From positions 1 through 64,000 of the forward strand of contig JAJEJA010000061.1 in the NCBI GenBank assembly GCA_022828145.1: a stretch of DNA of 64,000 nt, given 5' to 3'. The notes below the pieces were generated by a model that saw nothing but the letters and a program-made list of their open reading frames with translations, made no database searches and was not told the origin of the DNA. This document shows positions 57,037 to 63,898 of this stretch, in pieces. The position numbers and the translations under genes are program-made. How positions within the stretch are numbered: the first letter of the stretch is position 1; the number at the start of each line of letters is the position of its first letter. This DNA is from Candidatus Poribacteria bacterium. GTDB lineage: Bacteria > Poribacteria > WGA-4E > WGA-3G.

Positions 57037-57468
57037 ATGTCTAAACAGCATTGGCAGTTTTCTATTTTACTTCTGTTATCGGTTTGCCTTCATTCTATAT
57101 GTCCGATTCTGTGTGCTTCTACAGCAGAGAAGTTCTGTAATCTTTCAGATGGATTTGCAGAGATAGGAAATATAGATGACACTTCGTCTTGTTGTCACAA
57201 AACAGAAACAGATGAGACTGAAATACCATTAGCTCACGGTAAATGTTGCGGTTCTAATGACCTAACGTTTACTATTGCCAATGATTCTCATTTTGTTAAC
57301 AATATTGGTAAAACAGAAGTACATCAGTACGCTTCAGTAGTACAATTTACTGTGATTTTTCCTAACAAAAAGGAGCAATTCCTTTCCCAACATCCTTTCA
57401 CGACGCTTACCCACCCATCATTTCACAACGTAATATCCCGCCGCGGTCCTCCATTTACACTTTCTTAA
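57037..57468 (+). CDS. Small secreted Cys/His-rich protein, function unknown
   Basis: 143 residues, start ATG at 57037. A signal peptide (FSILLLLSVCLHSICPILCAS) is followed by a short mature domain with SCCHK (C52, C53, H54) and AHGKCCG (H67, C70, C71) clusters, suggestive of metal binding, and ends RRGPPFTLS. Short secreted proteins ending in an R-G-P-P type motif are often encoded next to copper-handling genes. I do not recognise a defined family. It is the first gene of a four-gene plus-strand cluster of exported proteins. Confidence 0.75.
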   Translation: MSKQHWQFSILLLLSVCLHSICPILCASTAEKFCNLSDGFAEIGNIDDTSSCCHKTETDETEIPLAHGKCCGSNDLTFTIANDSHFVNNIGKTEVHQYASVVQFTVIFPNKKEQFLSQHPFTTLTHPSFHNVISRRGPPFTLS

Positions 57469-57588
57469 GCATTTTGTTTGCTATAGACTTTTTGCCATAA
57501 CTGTTTAATATTACTACTGTTTTTTATATACGAAACGTGTATTATTATAATTATCCGTTATTTTAGGATAAATTCATGGAGGTTTAAA

Positions 57589-58611
57589 ATGAAATTTCGA
57601 TTTACCACAAGAGGCTTTTATTCACTTGCTCTAACGCTGTTTTTAGTTGCACTGATATCTGGTAACGTCCTTTATGCTGATAGTCATAAAGAACATAAAG
57701 AACACAAAGCACATACTACAGAAAATGTTGATGTCTTAAATGTAAAACTTCACACGGAACCCGATAAGATTTCAGCGGGAGAACCTGTGAATCTTATGTT
57801 GCACCTGACAGATGCTGCAGGTGAACCCTTTACGGATCTGATGGTACACCATGACCGAATTCTGCACGTTCTTATAGTAAGTGAAAACTTACAGACAATT
57901 GGACATGTACATCCAGAAGATTTTGAAGACCGCGATATGATAGCAGAACTTGAGGGTGTGTATACGGTGCAATTTACTTTCCCATATTCGGGTCGGTATA
58001 TCCTGGCACTTGATGTGATGACTGAAGATGCCGAATACACAAAACACATCTATGTAGATGTCGCTGGTGACAAGAAGATGTCAGAACTTACGCATGACAT
58101 GCGTAGAGAAAAGCGTGTAGTCGGTTATACGGAACAGGGAGGCGATCGTTACACCAAGGCAGTCTCCATCAATGAAAAGAAAGATGCATCTAAATACACT
58201 GTGAAAATGGAAGCACCTGAAAAGATCAAGGTTGGTGAGATGGTACATATCACGTATCATTTTACACATGCGGGGAAACCTGTGACCGATCTCGTCCCAT
58301 TTTTAGATGCCCCGATGCATTTTGCTATCGTAAGTAACCGTTTAGATGGTATACTACATACACATGGTACAGTTCCGATGGATGCAAAGCATGATAAAAA
58401 GAAAATGGATTCTTCACAGACTAAGGAAAAAATACCTGAGAAGACTCCAACAACTGGGCACCAACATAAGGGAATCACGCCTGATAAATTTGGTCCTACG
58501 GTGATGCTGATGACGACTTTCAAGAAAGCTGGCATATACCAGATATTCGGACAGGTGAAGCATGGGGATCAGGTTCTGTTCCCTACTTTTATGGTCAACG
58601 TTGAAGAGTAA
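57589..58611 (+). CDS. Secreted His-rich protein with two repeated metal-binding-like domains
   Basis: 340 residues. A signal peptide (~1-30) is followed by a His/Lys/Glu run (DSHKEHKEHKAH). Two Ig-like (YtkA/CopC-like) domains follow, about residues 47-165 and 205-340. Each carries the same pattern: LHVLIVSENLQTIGHVHP and MHFAIVSNRLDGILHTHG, that is (L/M)H-x2-IVS-x2-L-x2-I-x-H-x-H. The repeated H and HxH suggest Cu or another metal site in the periplasm. GGAGG precedes the ATG. A His-rich loop (TTGHQHKG) lies in domain 2. Confidence 0.78.
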   Translation: MKFRFTTRGFYSLALTLFLVALISGNVLYADSHKEHKEHKAHTTENVDVLNVKLHTEPDKISAGEPVNLMLHLTDAAGEPFTDLMVHHDRILHVLIVSENLQTIGHVHPEDFEDRDMIAELEGVYTVQFTFPYSGRYILALDVMTEDAEYTKHIYVDVAGDKKMSELTHDMRREKRVVGYTEQGGDRYTKAVSINEKKDASKYTVKMEAPEKIKVGEMVHITYHFTHAGKPVTDLVPFLDAPMHFAIVSNRLDGILHTHGTVPMDAKHDKKKMDSSQTKEKIPEKTPTTGHQHKGITPDKFGPTVMLMTTFKKAGIYQIFGQVKHGDQVLFPTFMVNVEE

Positions 58612-58620
58612 CCCTCTATG

Positions 58621-58640
58621 TCTGCTGCTTCGGCAGCAGA
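58621..58640 (+). promoter_or_regulatory. Intercistronic C(UUCG)G hairpin
   Basis: Perfect 8-bp stem TCTGCTGC / GCAGCAGA with a TTCG tetraloop, in the 54-bp gap before the FMN-binding-like gene. No T-tract follows, so it is more likely an mRNA-stability or processing element than a terminator. Confidence 0.85.
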
Positions 58641-58665
58641 CAATTCAAACATTAGGAGAGAAAAG

Positions 58666-59643
58666 ATGTTATCCAAATACTACACTCAGACTCGTATAGG
58701 TATGTTAATTTTAATAGTATCAATGATGATGTTTACACCATTGCTCAGCGAAGCGCATGAAACTGAGTTTCCGAGTAAGAAACTTGACGGTATCTTCCCA
58801 GAAGCAAAGAAGTTTATTCAACGTAACGTGGTCTTAACCAACGATAAGATTACTTCAATTGAGAAGGAATTGGGTTCGAAACTACGTAAAGAAGACCTGA
58901 AACCGATCTTTTATATTGCGATTAGTAAGGAAAAGAAGCCGCTTGGTCTGGTGCTGTTTGTTGATGTGCAAGGACCGAGTGGGATTATGGACGGTGGTGT
59001 GGGTTTAAACATGAAAGGGAAGGTGGTCAAAGTTCAGGTATATGAGCACAAGGAAGCGGATGCAATTGCTTCTGACAAGTTTCTCAAGCAGTTTATTGAT
59101 AAAGGTATAGAAGATAAGTTCGAGGTCGGTAAGGACATCACAGCTGTTAAGGGACAAGAAGCAGCTTCAAAAGCTGTTGCCTTGATGCCGAGAAAAACGC
59201 TGGTCATGAGTTACGCCCTCTTCCTTAAACGGAAACCAAAATCGGATGAAGATACGAAACCAGAACCTGAGGAAACACCTGAGGAGCTACCAGAAGTCGA
59301 AGACCTTAGAGAACTCATGACACTGATGGTTGATGACTACTATGTCATCGTCGACTATTTTGATGAGGATGAAGGTAAGGATGATGCGGTTGCCGCAGCG
59401 AAAAGACTTGCGCTATATGCTAAGATGATACCCGATTTTGATCCACCAAAAAACGCTGATAAAACTGAAGAATATGTTGAGGTGCAGGAGAAATTCAGCA
59501 AGACGGTTACAGAATTTGCGAATGCACTTGACAAGAATGGTATTACAGATGAAACGCGTAAAAAGTGGGATGAAATTGTGACGTTCGTGAATCAGGTACA
59601 CACTCGTTTTACTGAGGATGGGATTGATCTTGAGGCATATTAG
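58666..59643 (+). CDS. Exported FMN-binding-domain-like protein with helical C-terminal domain
   Basis: The ATG at 58666 has AGGAG eight bases upstream; the longer frame (58618) reads through the UUCG hairpin and is rejected. 325 residues. Signal peptide (RIGMLILIVSMMMFTPLLSEA). Residues ~35-175 resemble a RnfG/NosR-type FMN-binding domain (IMDGGVGLNMKGKVVKVQVY EHKEAD region, FLKQFIDKGIEDKF). An acidic Pro/Glu linker leads to a ~110-residue all-helical domain like cytochrome c'/b562, but without CxxCH. Likely a periplasmic redox protein. FMN attachment is inferred only. Confidence 0.7.
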   Translation: MLSKYYTQTRIGMLILIVSMMMFTPLLSEAHETEFPSKKLDGIFPEAKKFIQRNVVLTNDKITSIEKELGSKLRKEDLKPIFYIAISKEKKPLGLVLFVDVQGPSGIMDGGVGLNMKGKVVKVQVYEHKEADAIASDKFLKQFIDKGIEDKFEVGKDITAVKGQEAASKAVALMPRKTLVMSYALFLKRKPKSDEDTKPEPEETPEELPEVEDLRELMTLMVDDYYVIVDYFDEDEGKDDAVAAAKRLALYAKMIPDFDPPKNADKTEEYVEVQEKFSKTVTEFANALDKNGITDETRKKWDEIVTFVNQVHTRFTEDGIDLEAY

Positions 59644-59650
59644 ACCAGCA

Positions 59651-59688
59651 TAAGAGACGGCACTCGGAGAGTGCCTACTACTATTAAA
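59651..59688. repeat. Single R1 repeat unit flanked by a 21-bp near-duplication
   Basis: One R1 unit (GGCACTC-GGA-GAGTGCC palindrome). Flanking it, 59623-59643 and 59688-59708 match at 19 of 21 positions; the left copy is the last seven codons of the FMN-binding-like gene including its stop. Confidence 0.88.
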
Positions 59689-59774
59689 TTGATCTTGATG
59701 CACATTAGGCACGCAAAACATTTTAGATGATTATCAAATACAATCTAAAACTACTTTGATAGAAGGACTTTACC

Positions 59775-61304
59775 ATGCGAAAAGTGATTCTCTTATGTAT
59801 AATGATTCTTTTCAGTTCCATTATTGCAGACCAATCGGTCTATGCGCTTCCTGCATTCTATAAAATGTTCAAGGCGAAATATAAATGGAGAAGTGGCTGT
59901 AATGTCTGTCATTTCTCAAAGAAAGGTGGAGATGCACAGAATCCCTACGGCAGAGCATTCTTACACAACGGTATGAACCTGTCTACGTTCACACGTATTG
60001 AGAAGACCGATTCAGATAAAGATGGATTTACCAATATAGCAGAACTTATCGCTCGTTCTTACCCTGGTGATGCTGCAAGTACACCTGAAAATGTAGACAC
60101 ATCCATTGAACAATCAGAATCGGAGGAAGAACTTATACTTGAAGATGATGATGTGTTTAGTTTTGATGATGTTGATGCATCGGAGGATTCAAGTGATTCT
60201 GAATTCCTTGGCGGGGCATTTAGTAATCTCATCTTCGGTGGTGCTTTGGATATTCGGCGTATTACACGCGGACAAGACCTGATACCGGATAGAGACAATT
60301 GGGATAGTGGAACAACTTTGATCCATGTTGCAGAACTGGTGGTAACAACTAGCGTAGGTGACCATGTGAGTATATTGGGTGAACAACTACTGACGACCTC
60401 GCCTTTAGGCACACAGGTAGCGGATGACCACGGATTTGTTTATGCTATTCTGACAGGCTTGCCAGTATTACCTAAAGGTACATCCTTGAAACTGGGTAGG
60501 TTTCGGCATGGGTTTGGCATAGATACAAGATCGGATGCTGCTGCTAATCCCCTGTATAATCTGGTGCGAAAGAATATCGGTTTTATTTCTGATCGGGGTC
60601 TTCAATTGAACGGTTTCGTTGGTCCTATTTCTTATGTGTTATCACTTGCGGATGGACCGGATTCACTTCGCACTGTAACTGATGGTACGGTGACTTCTGG
60701 CATACGGATTGGTCCTCATGGAAGTGGCGGTGGGGTTCTGAGACCGATTAGAAACAATAGTCCTCCCGTGTTTGTGCACCTGAATGGTACTTTGCCTATA
60801 TTTGGGAAGCGATTCTGGTTTGGAACTTCATATTTTGACGGGAACAGTTACCCATTCAATGCAATCAATGGAGATGTTAATCCATCAACTTTGGTCTATA
60901 AACGTCGTTTGGGTCTTGCGACAAGTTTCAAGGTGTGGAAGTTTGATCTGGCAACGGAGTGGGTTACAGGAAGAGATACAGAACTCCTGACATATCTTAG
61001 TGTTCCAAATCCATCAGAAGATAGGCATGCATCTGTAGAGGGATTTTATTTTCATGTAGAATTACCACTGAATGAGAGTTTAGATATTCGGTTAAAGTAT
61101 GATGTTTGGAATCCGGATAGAGATCTATTTAGCACGTTTTCAATAGACAGAGAACCTGAAGAACTGACTTGGACTACCCTTGGTGGAGCTCTGACGTGGC
61201 ATTTTAGTGAAGGTGCTTTGGTACGAGTTGTCTATCAAGTCAATAATGTTGAAAAGTCTACACGAAGTGCAGCCATTGTTCCTCAACTATTGGTTGAGTT
61301 TTAG
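59775..61304 (+). CDS. Heme-binding-domain / outer-membrane beta-barrel fusion protein
   Basis: 509 residues. A signal peptide is followed by one c-type heme motif, GCNVCHFSKK (C42, C45, H46), in an ~60-residue domain, then a calcium-binding-like DSDKDGFTNIAEL (about 78-90), an acidic Ser/Asp/Glu linker (about 110-150), and from ~155 an antiparallel beta-rich region with alternating hydrophobic residues. The chain ends PQLLVEF, a C-terminal Phe typical of outer-membrane barrels. It looks like a porin with a periplasmic or surface monoheme domain. Possible roles are electron export or a metal or heme channel. A GAAGGACT ribosome-binding site precedes the ATG. Confidence 0.8.
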   Translation: MRKVILLCIMILFSSIIADQSVYALPAFYKMFKAKYKWRSGCNVCHFSKKGGDAQNPYGRAFLHNGMNLSTFTRIEKTDSDKDGFTNIAELIARSYPGDAASTPENVDTSIEQSESEEELILEDDDVFSFDDVDASEDSSDSEFLGGAFSNLIFGGALDIRRITRGQDLIPDRDNWDSGTTLIHVAELVVTTSVGDHVSILGEQLLTTSPLGTQVADDHGFVYAILTGLPVLPKGTSLKLGRFRHGFGIDTRSDAAANPLYNLVRKNIGFISDRGLQLNGFVGPISYVLSLADGPDSLRTVTDGTVTSGIRIGPHGSGGGVLRPIRNNSPPVFVHLNGTLPIFGKRFWFGTSYFDGNSYPFNAINGDVNPSTLVYKRRLGLATSFKVWKFDLATEWVTGRDTELLTYLSVPNPSEDRHASVEGFYFHVELPLNESLDIRLKYDVWNPDRDLFSTFSIDREPEELTWTTLGGALTWHFSEGALVRVVYQVNNVEKSTRSAAIVPQLLVEF

Positions 61305-61725: not shown

Positions 61726-62721
61726 TTACGGTTTTCCATCAGTTTTTGAATGGACTGCAATCAGGACCATGCATGTCGTTTGTAGGTTTGCCTGAGGTGA
61801 GTTGATTTCTATGGGTATTTTACTGATAAAACTGCCATCCGCTGCTTGAACTTTCGTAAGATAATTGATTGCAACACGTCTTGTATTTAACGGGTCTTGA
61901 TTTGCTGCAAGAGCCATAATGACAGTGGCAGTCACTTCAGGGTCGCTCTCTTTTCCTGGAAATCTTGGAAAACCACCGTCTGTTTTCTGAAACTGCTTTA
62001 ACCAAGCGATCTGTGTATCCACATCATAGACTGGTAATAGACCTTGTAGAGCCCATGCGGTTATGTATATATCTGATTGTGTTCCTCCTGGCAGATTCCA
62101 GTATCCTTCCCTGTTTCTTTGTTCAAAGTTTTCCAGCCATTCCATACCTGGAAGGAGTGAGTCGAAGCTTCTGTGATTGAAACCGAGGTATTTCAATCCT
62201 ACAAGCGTTGCTGAGGTATATAGCACCTGTCCAGTGCTGTTACCTTTACGTCCCCAACTTCCACTGCGATTCTGTGCCTTTTTTATCCAAGAGAGGCCAT
62301 CAAATCTTGCCTCTGGATCGGTATTAGCCTTTGTTAGAGCGATGAGTGCAAAAATTGTATGAGCGGTATTGTCATTCCAACTGCCATCTTCCCGCTGACT
62401 ATTTCTTAGGTATCTGACACCTCTACGAATGATTCTTGAACCAGTTCCCCAGTCTGCTTCAATTAATGCCCAGATAGCGAGAGCAGTAATTTCAACATCA
62501 CTTTCTCCACCTGGTAATAACGACCAACCACCATCTTCATTCTGTTGATTGATGATGTATTCTTTTGTTTTCTTGATCATTTTATAGATTCTGGGTTCGG
62601 TAGTATCAATTGCGAGTTCGGGTCTGGCACCCTCAGCCAAGTTTATCATGCTGTCAAATCCGCAGATACATAAGAGTATCTGTAGACATAGCAAAATGTA
62701 GATATGCTTCAGTTTTTTCAT
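61726..62721 (-). CDS. Secreted prenyltransferase/squalene-oxidase-repeat protein
   Basis: 331 residues with a signal peptide (IYILLCLQILLCICGF). The body is an alpha/alpha toroid of about six QW-like repeats: QQNEDGGWSLLPGGESDVEI, SQREDGSWNDNTAHT, AQNRSGSWGRKGNST, REGYWNLPGGTQSDIY, FQKTDGGFPRFPGKESDPEV, VQAADGSFISK. This fold occurs in terpene cyclases, but the cyclase DXDD motif is not visible, so it is probably a periplasmic binding or scaffold protein. Such secreted proteins are common in Planctomycetes-like genomes. Confidence 0.82.
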   Translation of the reverse strand: MKKLKHIYILLCLQILLCICGFDSMINLAEGARPELAIDTTEPRIYKMIKKTKEYIINQQNEDGGWSLLPGGESDVEITALAIWALIEADWGTGSRIIRRGVRYLRNSQREDGSWNDNTAHTIFALIALTKANTDPEARFDGLSWIKKAQNRSGSWGRKGNSTGQVLYTSATLVGLKYLGFNHRSFDSLLPGMEWLENFEQRNREGYWNLPGGTQSDIYITAWALQGLLPVYDVDTQIAWLKQFQKTDGGFPRFPGKESDPEVTATVIMALAANQDPLNTRRVAINYLTKVQAADGSFISKIPIEINSPQANLQTTCMVLIAVHSKTDGKP

Positions 62722-62773
62722 TTTTTCACCTTTGTGTTGTTTCGGCTTTATCGGTTCGATTGATCATTCCTGA

Positions 62774-63898
62774 TTATAAATCGGGTTCAATTACAACTTT
62801 GTAGACCCCTTCATCTCCCAGCATATCGATACCTGCTTCTAATTCATTCAATGGCAGGTGATGTGTTATGAGTTTGTGTAAGGGTATCTGTGTTCGCTGC
62901 AGGAAATCTAAAGCGGTTTGGAACTGGATCTGTGGGTAAGCCCATACACCGCATACATCAAGGTCTTTATTGCATATCTGATGTGGTCTTACCTCGGTTA
63001 TGCCTGAATCTGTATAATGTCCTACTTCAATGACCTTTCCGCCTCGTCTCACAACATCTAATGCTTCGGAGAAGACGGATGGAATACCAGCACACTCAAT
63101 GGCAATATCTACGCCTACGCCGTTTGTAAGAGCCTGTATCTGTTCAGTGCGTTCTTTTAGTGAGGTATTACCTACATTTATGACAACATCTGCCCCCATC
63201 TGTGTTGCCATTTCCAAACGGCTATCTACAAGGTCAGTTGCGATGATTGTACCAGCCCCGCTATCGCGTAATACTGCAATTACAAGGAGTCCGATGGGTC
63301 CGCATCCAAGGACTGCGACCCTGCTGCCAATGCTATAACCGTCCCCTACTTGTGGTAATCCAGGTGAACATGCGCGTTCAACTGCGCGGGTCGCTACAGC
63401 TACAGGTTCAATAAGCACTGTAATCTCTTCTGGTATTTCATCCGGTATTTTGTAGACCCATGAGTTACCATGAATGTAGGTGTATTCTGAGAATTCCCCT
63501 GTTAGATAGGGAGGGGTCTCACTATTGCTGAACCCATAGATTGTTCGTCCTGAGCACAGTGTTGGACGTCCGGGGACGTGTAAACAGTAATAACATCTAC
63601 CGCAGTTTTTGGAACCGGGAACTACCGTAACTCGGTCACCAGATTTGATTGGACCTCCCATCACGCTCATCACTTGATTTGCATACTTTCCAATATCAGT
63701 TGCTGTACCGACGACTTCATGACCGGGAATGACTGGGAATTTCAGTGCGGTGTGTCCAAGATACATGTGCTTATCGCTACCACAGATGCCGACCTTGTCA
63801 ACTCTTAATAATAGTGCATCGTCTTCGGGAGTTGGTTTGTCGAATTCTTGTATTTCAATTTGTCCTGGTTGGACCATGACTGCTGCTTGAACTTTCAT
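62774..63898 (-). CDS. Zinc-dependent medium-chain alcohol dehydrogenase
   Basis: 374 residues of the MDR family. Catalytic-zinc residues in GICGSDKHMYLGHTALKF and PVIPGHEVVG, structural-zinc cysteines in NCGRCYYCLHVPGRPTLC (four Cys), Rossmann loop VAVLGCGPIGLLVIAVL. Likely oxidises a sugar alcohol or related polyol with NAD; exact substrate unknown. Its start is an ATG at 63898. Confidence 0.92.
   Translation of the reverse strand: MKVQAAVMVQPGQIEIQEFDKPTPEDDALLLRVDKVGICGSDKHMYLGHTALKFPVIPGHEVVGTATDIGKYANQVMSVMGGPIKSGDRVTVVPGSKNCGRCYYCLHVPGRPTLCSGRTIYGFSNSETPPYLTGEFSEYTYIHGNSWVYKIPDEIPEEITVLIEPVAVATRAVERACSPGLPQVGDGYSIGSRVAVLGCGPIGLLVIAVLRDSGAGTIIATDLVDSRLEMATQMGADVVINVGNTSLKERTEQIQALTNGVGVDIAIECAGIPSVFSEALDVVRRGGKVIEVGHYTDSGITEVRPHQICNKDLDVCGVWAYPQIQFQTALDFLQRTQIPLHKLITHHLPLNELEAGIDMLGDEGVYKVVIEPDL

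Follow-up and report, generated by a model that had tools for sequence, protein, structure and literature searches.

The four consecutive genes g1-g2-g3-g4 of the window, a stretch of 64,000 nucleotides of a Candidatus Poribacteria contig, are one of two interchangeable cassettes that occupy one chromosomal place in a family of sponge-living Poribacteria. The other is a CusCBA-type heavy-metal efflux operon. The four ORFs lie on the + strand at positions 57037-61304 (Table 1) and the four products have hydrophobic, signal-like N-termini, as read by eye, in agreement with the exported gene set proposed by an earlier note on this DNA. The single candidate promoter proposed in the same note, upstream from g1, was not upheld, as a promoter-like site of equal quality (10/12) is present between g1 and g2 (57523-57551) and the promoter-like matches (17) are at chance level (15.3 ± 4.1 in shuffles). 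Among the matches listed for cassette-related terms in the open-access literature, no description of the four-gene cassette was found.

Table 1. Features of the four-gene cassette and of its right flank in the window.
Feature	Positions	Strand	Basis
g1, exported Cys-pair protein, 143 aa	57037..57468	+	ORF; CPxxC, CC, CC; C-terminal RGPP
g2, exported His-rich protein with two tandem YtkA-like domains, 340 aa	57589..58611	+	PF13115, internal repeat
g3, exported protein with RnfG/FMN_bind-like N-terminal and b562-like C-terminal domains	58666..59640	+	orthologue-backed start
b562-like domain of g3, modelled four-helix bundle	59287..59640	+	model, ligand columns
g4, one c-type haem site and probable outer-membrane barrel, 509 aa	59775..61304	+	ORF, partial family matches
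331-aa protein gene and alcohol-dehydrogenase-like gene flanking the slot on the right	61726..63898	-	synteny

Full-length g4 was detected in 18 of the 18 genomes of the window's genus, all of which harbor the order g1-g2-g3-g4 on one contig, and in 33 of the 58 genomes of the family. The g2 gene was present in 32 of these 33 genomes. Matches to g3 were obtained in 56 of the 58 family genomes, including 23 of the 25 lacking full-length g4, and matches to g1 in 35 of 35 family genomes in a search of 59 genomes. Conservation of the four-gene set in Candidatus Poribacteria is far above chance, and the co-occurrence check proposed in the earlier note favors a unit.

The 25 family genomes lacking full-length g4 harbor the Cus-type operon instead. 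Close CusA homologues (E ≤ 1e-150) were found in 23 of the 58 family genomes, a count including the query's own genome, the other 22 being at 91-95%, and there was no overlap with full-length g4. Two genomes (G028 and G030) have neither a close CusA nor full-length g4; they were considered as a third form, which was rejected since both contain the start of a Cus operon running into a contig end. The g1 and g3 genes of the cassette also flank the operon, g2 and g4 being absent, and in 21 of the 23 genomes CusA and g3 share a contig at a distance of approximately 1 kb. It is headed by g1 and encodes a CusA/CzcA pump (TIGR00914 above cut-off), a CusB-like adaptor with four HMBD stretches, two OEP proteins, and a YHS-like protein. 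No RND gene is present at positions 57037-61304 of the window, and the window's genome contains distant relatives of CusA but no close one. Unlike a CusCBA operon, the window's cassette contains neither an RND pump nor an adaptor or TolC-like gene; the two alternate in one slot, in which the operon substitutes for g2 and g4 in related genomes.

Relics of g4 of at least 50 bp were detected at the junction between g3 and the vWA gene in 5 of the 11 pump-form genomes whose loci cover this junction, and relics of 27-37 bp in three more. In 2 of 10 pump-form genomes, the start of g2 persists as a relic behind the gene for the outer-membrane protein. The relics point to a derivation of the pump form from the four-gene form by replacement, a conclusion that is supported but not proven. 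The g3 sequences of the pump form make up one tree group (support of 0.92). The 331-aa protein and alcohol-dehydrogenase-like genes of the right flank adjoin both cassette forms, and the flanking genes suggest that the forms may have been exchanged between relatives.

No Pfam or NCBIfam family was assigned to g1 at cut-off. Five cysteines (C22, C26, C52, C53, and C71) are invariant in 14 of the 14 alignment rows. The protein had been described as a Cys/His protein based on CCH and HGKCC motifs, of which the histidines are kept in only 3 and 1 of the 14 rows, respectively. The g1 product is thus a Cys-pair protein rather than a Cys/His protein. The two-domain structure proposed for g2 is real: domain 1 aligns with domain 2 at z = 14.1 (0 of 500 shuffles as high), and the internal repeat was recovered in three orthologues (z of 7.9-9.3). 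The second domain matches PF13115 (YtkA) above cut-off (residues 199-239; 32.7 bits versus 25.9). The histidine triads H93/H106/H108 and H244/H257/H259 are invariant in 12 distinct sequences (13 alignment rows, the window's own sequence appearing twice). In Bacillus subtilis, the YtkA domains of CtaK and YcnJ are reported to assist the CuA-containing oxidase at low copper (PMC13344008). The g2 protein resembles CtaK and the C-terminus of YcnJ, as portrayed there, by its PF13115 match, export, and kept histidines, and differs from them by its tandem domains, His-richness, free-standing character, and occurrence in one cassette alongside a haem protein and probable porin.

The g3 ORF as called spans positions 58618-59643 (341 aa), whereas orthologues favor a start at position 58666 (325 aa). 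The N-terminal half aligns with RnfG across the FMN-site region; scores were below cut-off for both FMN_bind (Pfam; 16.3 bits versus 22) and the rnfG family (18 versus 102). GAT is the flavin-attachment motif, threonine being the attachment residue. The RnfG sequence GATITSKAV stands opposite GQEEASKAV in the g3 profile, and the flavin threonine is missing. In addition to GQEAAS in place of GAT, g3 differs from RnfG/NqrC by its fusion to a b562-like domain and by the absence of Rnf genes in the cassette. The FMN-like character initially attributed to g3 is limited to an RnfG-like N-terminal half, the C-terminal third being a cytochrome b562-like bundle.

This C-terminal domain was modelled as a four-helix bundle of approximately 105 residues. 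The columns equivalent to the haem ligands Met7 and His102 of cytochrome b562 contain Met and His in 15 of 15 aligned sequences. Across the g3 family, both residues are kept in 35 of 36 long alignment rows, among which the window's sequence appears twice. PPK occurs in the loop of the window's domain, as in cytochrome b562. PF07361 matched 6 of the 15 members (best E of 0.0017), with a score below cut-off for the window's domain (14.6 bits versus 30), and a PDB sequence search with the domain profile found no b562. The b562 fold is a modelled assignment, supported but not proven. Unlike cytochrome b562, the domain belongs to a larger exported protein, and in two genomes, G019 and G021, it is fused to cytochrome b.

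The g4 protein consists of a signal peptide (by eye), a CNVCH site in a temptin/GEGP-like segment, an acidic linker, a probable barrel, and a final Phe. All 10 aligned orthologues keep the single CxxCH. Family matches were partial for NF041762 (8.5e-16; 58.1 bits versus a cut-off of 300) and below cut-off for PF24784 (9.3e-5; present in 10 of 10 members). In pairwise shuffle tests, the barrel region scored z values of 4.6-5.9 against the Porin_O_P-like protein L083 for 4 of 4 related queries, and of -0.1 to 3.7 against the porin-like proteins L084, L082, L081, and L087, L085 and L086 being left out of the test. By strand-alternation counts, g4 could not be told apart from soluble proteins, and in hhalign comparisons of the barrel, Porin_O_P-like proteins were not clearly distinguished from controls. 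A PDB profile search with g4 provided only a weak match to OmpA (E of 0.039), which was lost with a wider barrel alignment. The C-terminal part is probably a porin-like outer-membrane barrel, an assignment based on its remote resemblance to a single Porin_O_P-like protein, L083. The CxxCH proposed for g4 in the earlier note was confirmed, while structure prediction did not show the barrel (AlphaFold2, 10 orthologues, pLDDT of 27.6). In porin-cytochrome conduits of the MtrCAB type, the c cytochrome is multihaem and the barrel is a separate protein. Since the four proteins of the cassette contain one CxxCH in total, a conduit of this kind is not supported.

Cyc2, the fused cytochrome-porin of iron oxidizers, is described as having a single N-terminal CXXCH following the signal peptide, a 16-stranded OprO/P-like porin, the motif AXPXFAR[Q/K][T/Y] five residues before CXXCH, and PXL four residues after it (PMC8406198). 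The g4 protein has the signal peptide, the single N-terminal CxxCH, a probable porin-like barrel in a single chain of approximately 500 aa, and AxPxF ahead of the haem site. In contrast to Cyc2, it contains ALPAFYKMF, without AR[QK][TY], located nine rather than five residues ahead of CNVCH, and PXL was not found after CxxCH (CNVCHFSKKGGD...). It also contains an additional temptin/GEGP-like DSDxDG segment and the acidic linker, and its neighbors are YtkA-like, RnfG-b562-like, and Cys-pair proteins. Assignment of g4 to Cyc2 was ruled out on these published motifs.

The gene neighborhoods in other families provided two links. In two of these families, g3 is upstream from Rieske and/or cytochrome b genes, and in the distant genome G048 a g4-like gene, two g3-like genes, and Rieske-like and cytochrome b genes occur in a row. 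In G043 and G045, which also lie outside the window's family, the genes preceding g3 encode a multicopper oxidase resembling CopA and an efflux protein of the outer membrane. The b562-like domain and the Rieske/cytochrome b adjacency support an electron theme; the alternation with a CusCBA-type operon and the CopA-like neighbor support a copper theme. Each half of the copper or electron theme of the earlier note is thus independently supported, while we infer the metal, copper being favored over iron, that g3 touches g4, and which way the electrons flow. Of the readings considered, the likeliest is a copper-linked redox module of the envelope that is connected to a Rieske/cytochrome b complex (probability of roughly 0.45). 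In this module, g1, with its Cys pairs, and g2, with its His triads, would bind copper in the periplasm. The b562 haem of g3 would carry single electrons between the periplasm and the Rieske/cytochrome b complex of the membrane. In the outer membrane, g4 would form a pore whose periplasmic mouth bears one c-haem, and metal ions passing in or out would be oxidized or reduced there.

The same proteins might serve copper supply rather than defence, g2 (YtkA/CtaK-like) and g1 loading a CuA site or another cuproenzyme while g3 and g4 provide electrons and an outer-membrane entry for copper uptake and reduction. The YtkA domain of g2, the reported role of CtaK and YcnJ, and a porin usable as an import route are consistent with this unlikely alternative. 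However, the other occupant of the slot is an efflux operon, which, together with the g3 neighbors in G043 and G045, points to copper excess rather than shortage. Iron is a less probable substrate; in this case g4 would, like Cyc2, oxidize Fe(II), or would reduce iron, and electrons would pass to or from it through g3 and the Rieske/cytochrome b complex. The Cyc2-like combination of an N-terminal monohaem domain with a probable porin-like barrel, the resemblance of ALPAF to part of the Cyc2 motif (PMC8406198), and the gene row in G048 argue for iron. Against it are the incomplete upstream motif and missing PXL, the comparison being with published motifs only, the replacement by a CusA/CzcA pump, and the copper-type character of the YtkA, HMBD, and CopA-like proteins.

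It is just as improbable that g1 and g3 are residents and g2 and g4 a passenger pair, without a joint mechanism. Persistence of g3 in most family genomes lacking full-length g4, its occurrence elsewhere near Rieske genes without g2, and the g1-g2 and g3-g4 gaps of 120 and 131 bp would fit two such modules. The invariant gene order in the genus, the adjacency of g4-like and g3-like genes in the distant G048, and the single tree group of pump-form g3 sequences argue against them. Returning to the copper-linked redox module, a more specific and quite doubtful version is that toxic Cu(I) gives up electrons to g4, an outer-membrane monohaem porin, and that g3 acts as a periplasmic RnfG-b562 shuttle delivering them to a Rieske/cytochrome b complex, copper being oxidized by respiration where relatives pump it out.

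Several features of the proteins are new in their anatomy: the tandem YtkA-like g2 with invariant histidines; g3, in which an RnfG-like domain devoid of the flavin threonine is joined to a b562-like bundle with both ligands; and g4, with a Cyc2-like architecture, including a probable barrel, without the defining motifs in the published Cyc2 description. If the latter is correct, the g4 family widens the fused cytochrome-porins beyond the Cyc2 motif and would escape motif-based searches. To our knowledge, the role of cytochrome b562 is unclear; the b562-like domain beside Rieske genes and its fusion to cytochrome b lead to a testable proposal for the role of b562-type cytochromes. If the respiratory copper conduit exists, cytochrome b562 would be the electron partner of a bc-type complex. 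If the overall reading is right, a haem-porin redox module and a pump are two quite different solutions, perhaps to the same metal problem, that these bacteria swap at a single genomic site, where the swap has left molecular relics.

The four genes proposed in the earlier note (g1, Cys-pair protein; g2, tandem YtkA-like protein; g3, RnfG-like and b562-like protein; g4, haem protein and probable barrel) are present, the start of g3 being better placed at 58666 since its orthologues start there. Signal-like N-termini, detected by eye in all four proteins, agree with the export that the same note had claimed. Its single promoter was not borne out: promoter-like sites were about as numerous as expected by chance, and a site just as good lies between g1 and g2. 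Two dispersed repeats were detected in the window, the palindromic GGCACTC..AGAGTGCCTACTAC (7 copies) and GTCCCGTAGGGACGATATGTTTATA (5 copies), both with up to 3 mismatches allowed and 0 copies expected. One copy of the former separates g3 from g4, and a cluster of three copies of the latter lies just downstream of g4.

Table. Positions of the genes, repeats and related proteins.
Feature	Location	Remark
g1	window 57037-57468	plus strand
g2	window 57589-58611	plus strand
g3	window 58666-59643	plus strand
g4	window 59775-61304	plus strand
GGCACTC..AGAGTGCCTACTAC	window 32965, 34414, 34452, 34489, 55314, 55348, 59659	palindromic
GTCCCGTAGGGACGATATGTTTATA	window 12072, 12121, 61517, 61569, 61606	
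Cytochrome b with C-terminal b562-like domain	locus L062 6205-7677	genus labelled g3
Cytochrome b with C-terminal b562-like domain	locus L063 6664-8244	genus labelled g3
Divergent g3-like protein	locus L045 9743-10780	genome G048
vWA-domain protein	locus L041 17733-19124	

Five cysteines of g1 were invariant in 14/14 aligned rows; the histidines singled out previously were not conserved in these rows. The suspected duplication of g2 proved to be a true tandem repeat (z 14.1), with one His triad per half (H93/H106/H108 and H244/H257/H259). Both triads were unchanged across 13 rows, or 12 distinct sequences, as the window's copy was entered twice. YtkA domains of Bacillus help copper loading of a respiratory oxidase (PMC13344008). 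The window is from a Candidatus Poribacteria genome, as all nine named loci matching g2 belonged to Poribacteria MAGs.

Conservation was assessed in 59 genomes, including the window's own, and in a phylum-wide set of 84, of which 58 belong to the window's family, f1. The grouping of the four genes was upheld in the 59-genome set, all being present in the 18 genomes of the window's genus, in constant order and on a single contig according to the listed coordinates. In this set only, g1 was scored, and found in 35/35 f1 members plus G039. In the larger set, full-length g4 was present in 33/58 f1 genomes and, outside f1, a 396-residue match was found in G048, from another family. Gene g2 accompanied full-length g4 in 32 of 33 genomes, the exception being G064, an assembly 78% complete. 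Matches to g3 were obtained in 56/58 f1 genomes (fragmented in G067 and G068).

Two gene arrangements occupy the same place. The four-gene form is uninterrupted in the window's genus; an outer-membrane-like gene is located between genes g1 and g2 in the genus labelled g2, and between genes g2 and g3 in the genus labelled g3 (L047), with a vWA gene after g4 in both. In the pump form, a CusCBA-type efflux operon replaces g2 and g4. Between g1 and g3 come, in this order, genes for an outer-membrane-like protein, a protein of YHS type, a pair of TolC-like proteins, an HMBD-containing adaptor resembling CusB, the CusA/CzcA pump, and one small protein; most genomes have a vWA gene after g3. On the right, the window and numerous four-gene and pump-form loci share a 331-aa protein and a dehydrogenase. 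On the left, an MsrP-like gene borders many loci of either form, but the window has a sulfatase gene there. Among the loci retrieved, the vWA-domain protein comes after the cassette, whichever its form, in most from genera g2 and g3 and in none from the window's genus.

Close CusA homologues (E ≤ 1e-150) were detected in 23/58 f1 genomes, none of which harbored full-length g4; related genomes share descent, so that the counts for both forms do not represent independent events. By match coordinates, 21 of the 23 have CusA roughly 1 kb away from g3; in G075 it is on another contig, and G065 gave no match to g3. In G028 and G030, where both close CusA and full-length g4 were missing, the start of a pump operon runs to a contig end. 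More distant RND relatives were found in 58/59 genomes, of both forms, indicating that four-gene genomes are not devoid of RND pumps.

To search for relics, g2 and g4 of the window and of two four-gene genomes were compared with 14 loci of 12 pump-form genomes. Among the 11 genomes whose loci span the end of g3 and beyond, five (G023, G074, G080, G020, and G083) retained pieces of g4, 50 bp or longer, after g3, and three more (G034, G024, and G082) gave alignments of 27-37 bp. Some of these alignments touch the vWA ORF. The g4 remnants of G023, G074, and G080 were also picked up independently by a protein-level search. A remnant of the g2 start followed the outer-membrane-like gene in 2 (G023 and G024) of the 10 genomes spanning that site. 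Derivation of the pump form from the four-gene form is the simplest reading. In single-gene FastTree trees (12 to 27 sequences), flanking genes mixed the two forms: four-gene G077 paired with pump-form G024 in the dehydrogenase (support 0.999) and MsrP (0.903) trees. The g3 tree separated all pump-form sequences from the others (0.92), G024 pairing with G034. Nucleotide identity between G077 and G024 was 98.0% for the dehydrogenase, 88.4% for the 331-aa protein, 93.8% for vWA, 95.6% for MsrP, 88.2% for g1, 86.2% for the outer-membrane-like gene, and 77.4% for g3. Cassette recombination between relatives would most simply explain these patterns.

The haem segment of g4 contains CNVCH followed by DSDKDGF and matched part of NF041762 (8.5e-16, 58.1 bits, cut-off 300), a GEGP-motif dihaem family. 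Temptin_C matched this segment in 10/10 members, the window copy scoring below cut-off. The C-terminal 370 residues were compared with porin-like proteins and seven control groups. Scores against L083, a Poribacteria protein above the Porin_O_P cut-off, reached z 4.6 to 5.9 in 4/4 related queries. The control groups scored -1.5 to 2.3, and the four other porin-like proteins compared scored -0.1 to 3.7. No Porin_O_P match was obtained with g4 itself, and AlphaFold2 prediction with 10 orthologues gave no confident model (pLDDT 27.6). From these comparisons, the C-terminal part is likely a barrel. The general architecture is also that of Cyc2, for which PMC8406198 describes a 16-strand, OprO/P-like porin, AXPXFAR[Q/K][T/Y] five residues upstream from CXXCH, and PXL four residues downstream; g4, however, lacks both motifs.

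A g3 match was found in 10/11 genomes of two other Poribacteria families, f2 and f4, and seven of the ten neighborhoods were inspected. A Rieske gene adjoins g3 in G035, G043, G045, and G042 (Pfam or BLAST) and in G048 (by eye); an ORF of Rieske size is a candidate in G037 and G038. Cytochrome b comes next at the loci of G035, G037, G038, and G048, and is absent from that position at the inspected loci of G043, G045, and G042. In G043 and G045, g3 is directly preceded by a multicopper oxidase that exceeds the Pfam cut-off; its best match in NCBIfam, copper_res_A, falls short of the cut-off for that family. Ahead of the oxidase lie genes for an efflux protein of the outer membrane, a protein with sub-threshold similarity to DUF3347, and one weakly resembling g1. 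On one strand of G048, a partial cytochrome b gene is followed by a g4-like gene, then by a divergent g3-like copy and g3 proper, and finally by Rieske-like and cytochrome b genes. In this assembly, a stop and a stretch of N interrupt the g4-like gene. In the divergent g3-like protein, which gave no hit in Pfam at E ≤ 0.01, an extra His-containing N-terminal stretch precedes the RnfG-like part. The window's genome has its Rieske and cytochrome b genes on a different contig. A 3.3 kb contig of an f1 genome (L076; G072 C146) carries a second, f4-type g3 and a Rieske gene, with the same BLAST figures as L077 from G042; it is possibly a contamination of the G072 assembly. Both genomes of genus g3 (G019 and G021) encode a normal g3 and, besides it, a cytochrome b whose C-terminus is fused to a b562-like domain, a possible Rosetta-stone clue to the function of b562.

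Taken singly, the components are variations on known types; neither their combination, nor the b562 fusions, nor the exchange between pump and cassette appeared among the open-access literature matches listed. The signs of copper are the Cus-type pump with which the cassette alternates, the YtkA domains, and the neighboring multicopper oxidase. Those of electron transfer are the haem of g4, the b562-like domain with its fusion to cytochrome b, and the adjacent Rieske and cytochrome b genes. Copper would be a possible substrate, and electrons may run in either direction. The most economical joint reading is that the four genes encode a copper-linked envelope redox module, which would be wired to a quinol-oxidising complex and may include an outer-membrane haem pore.
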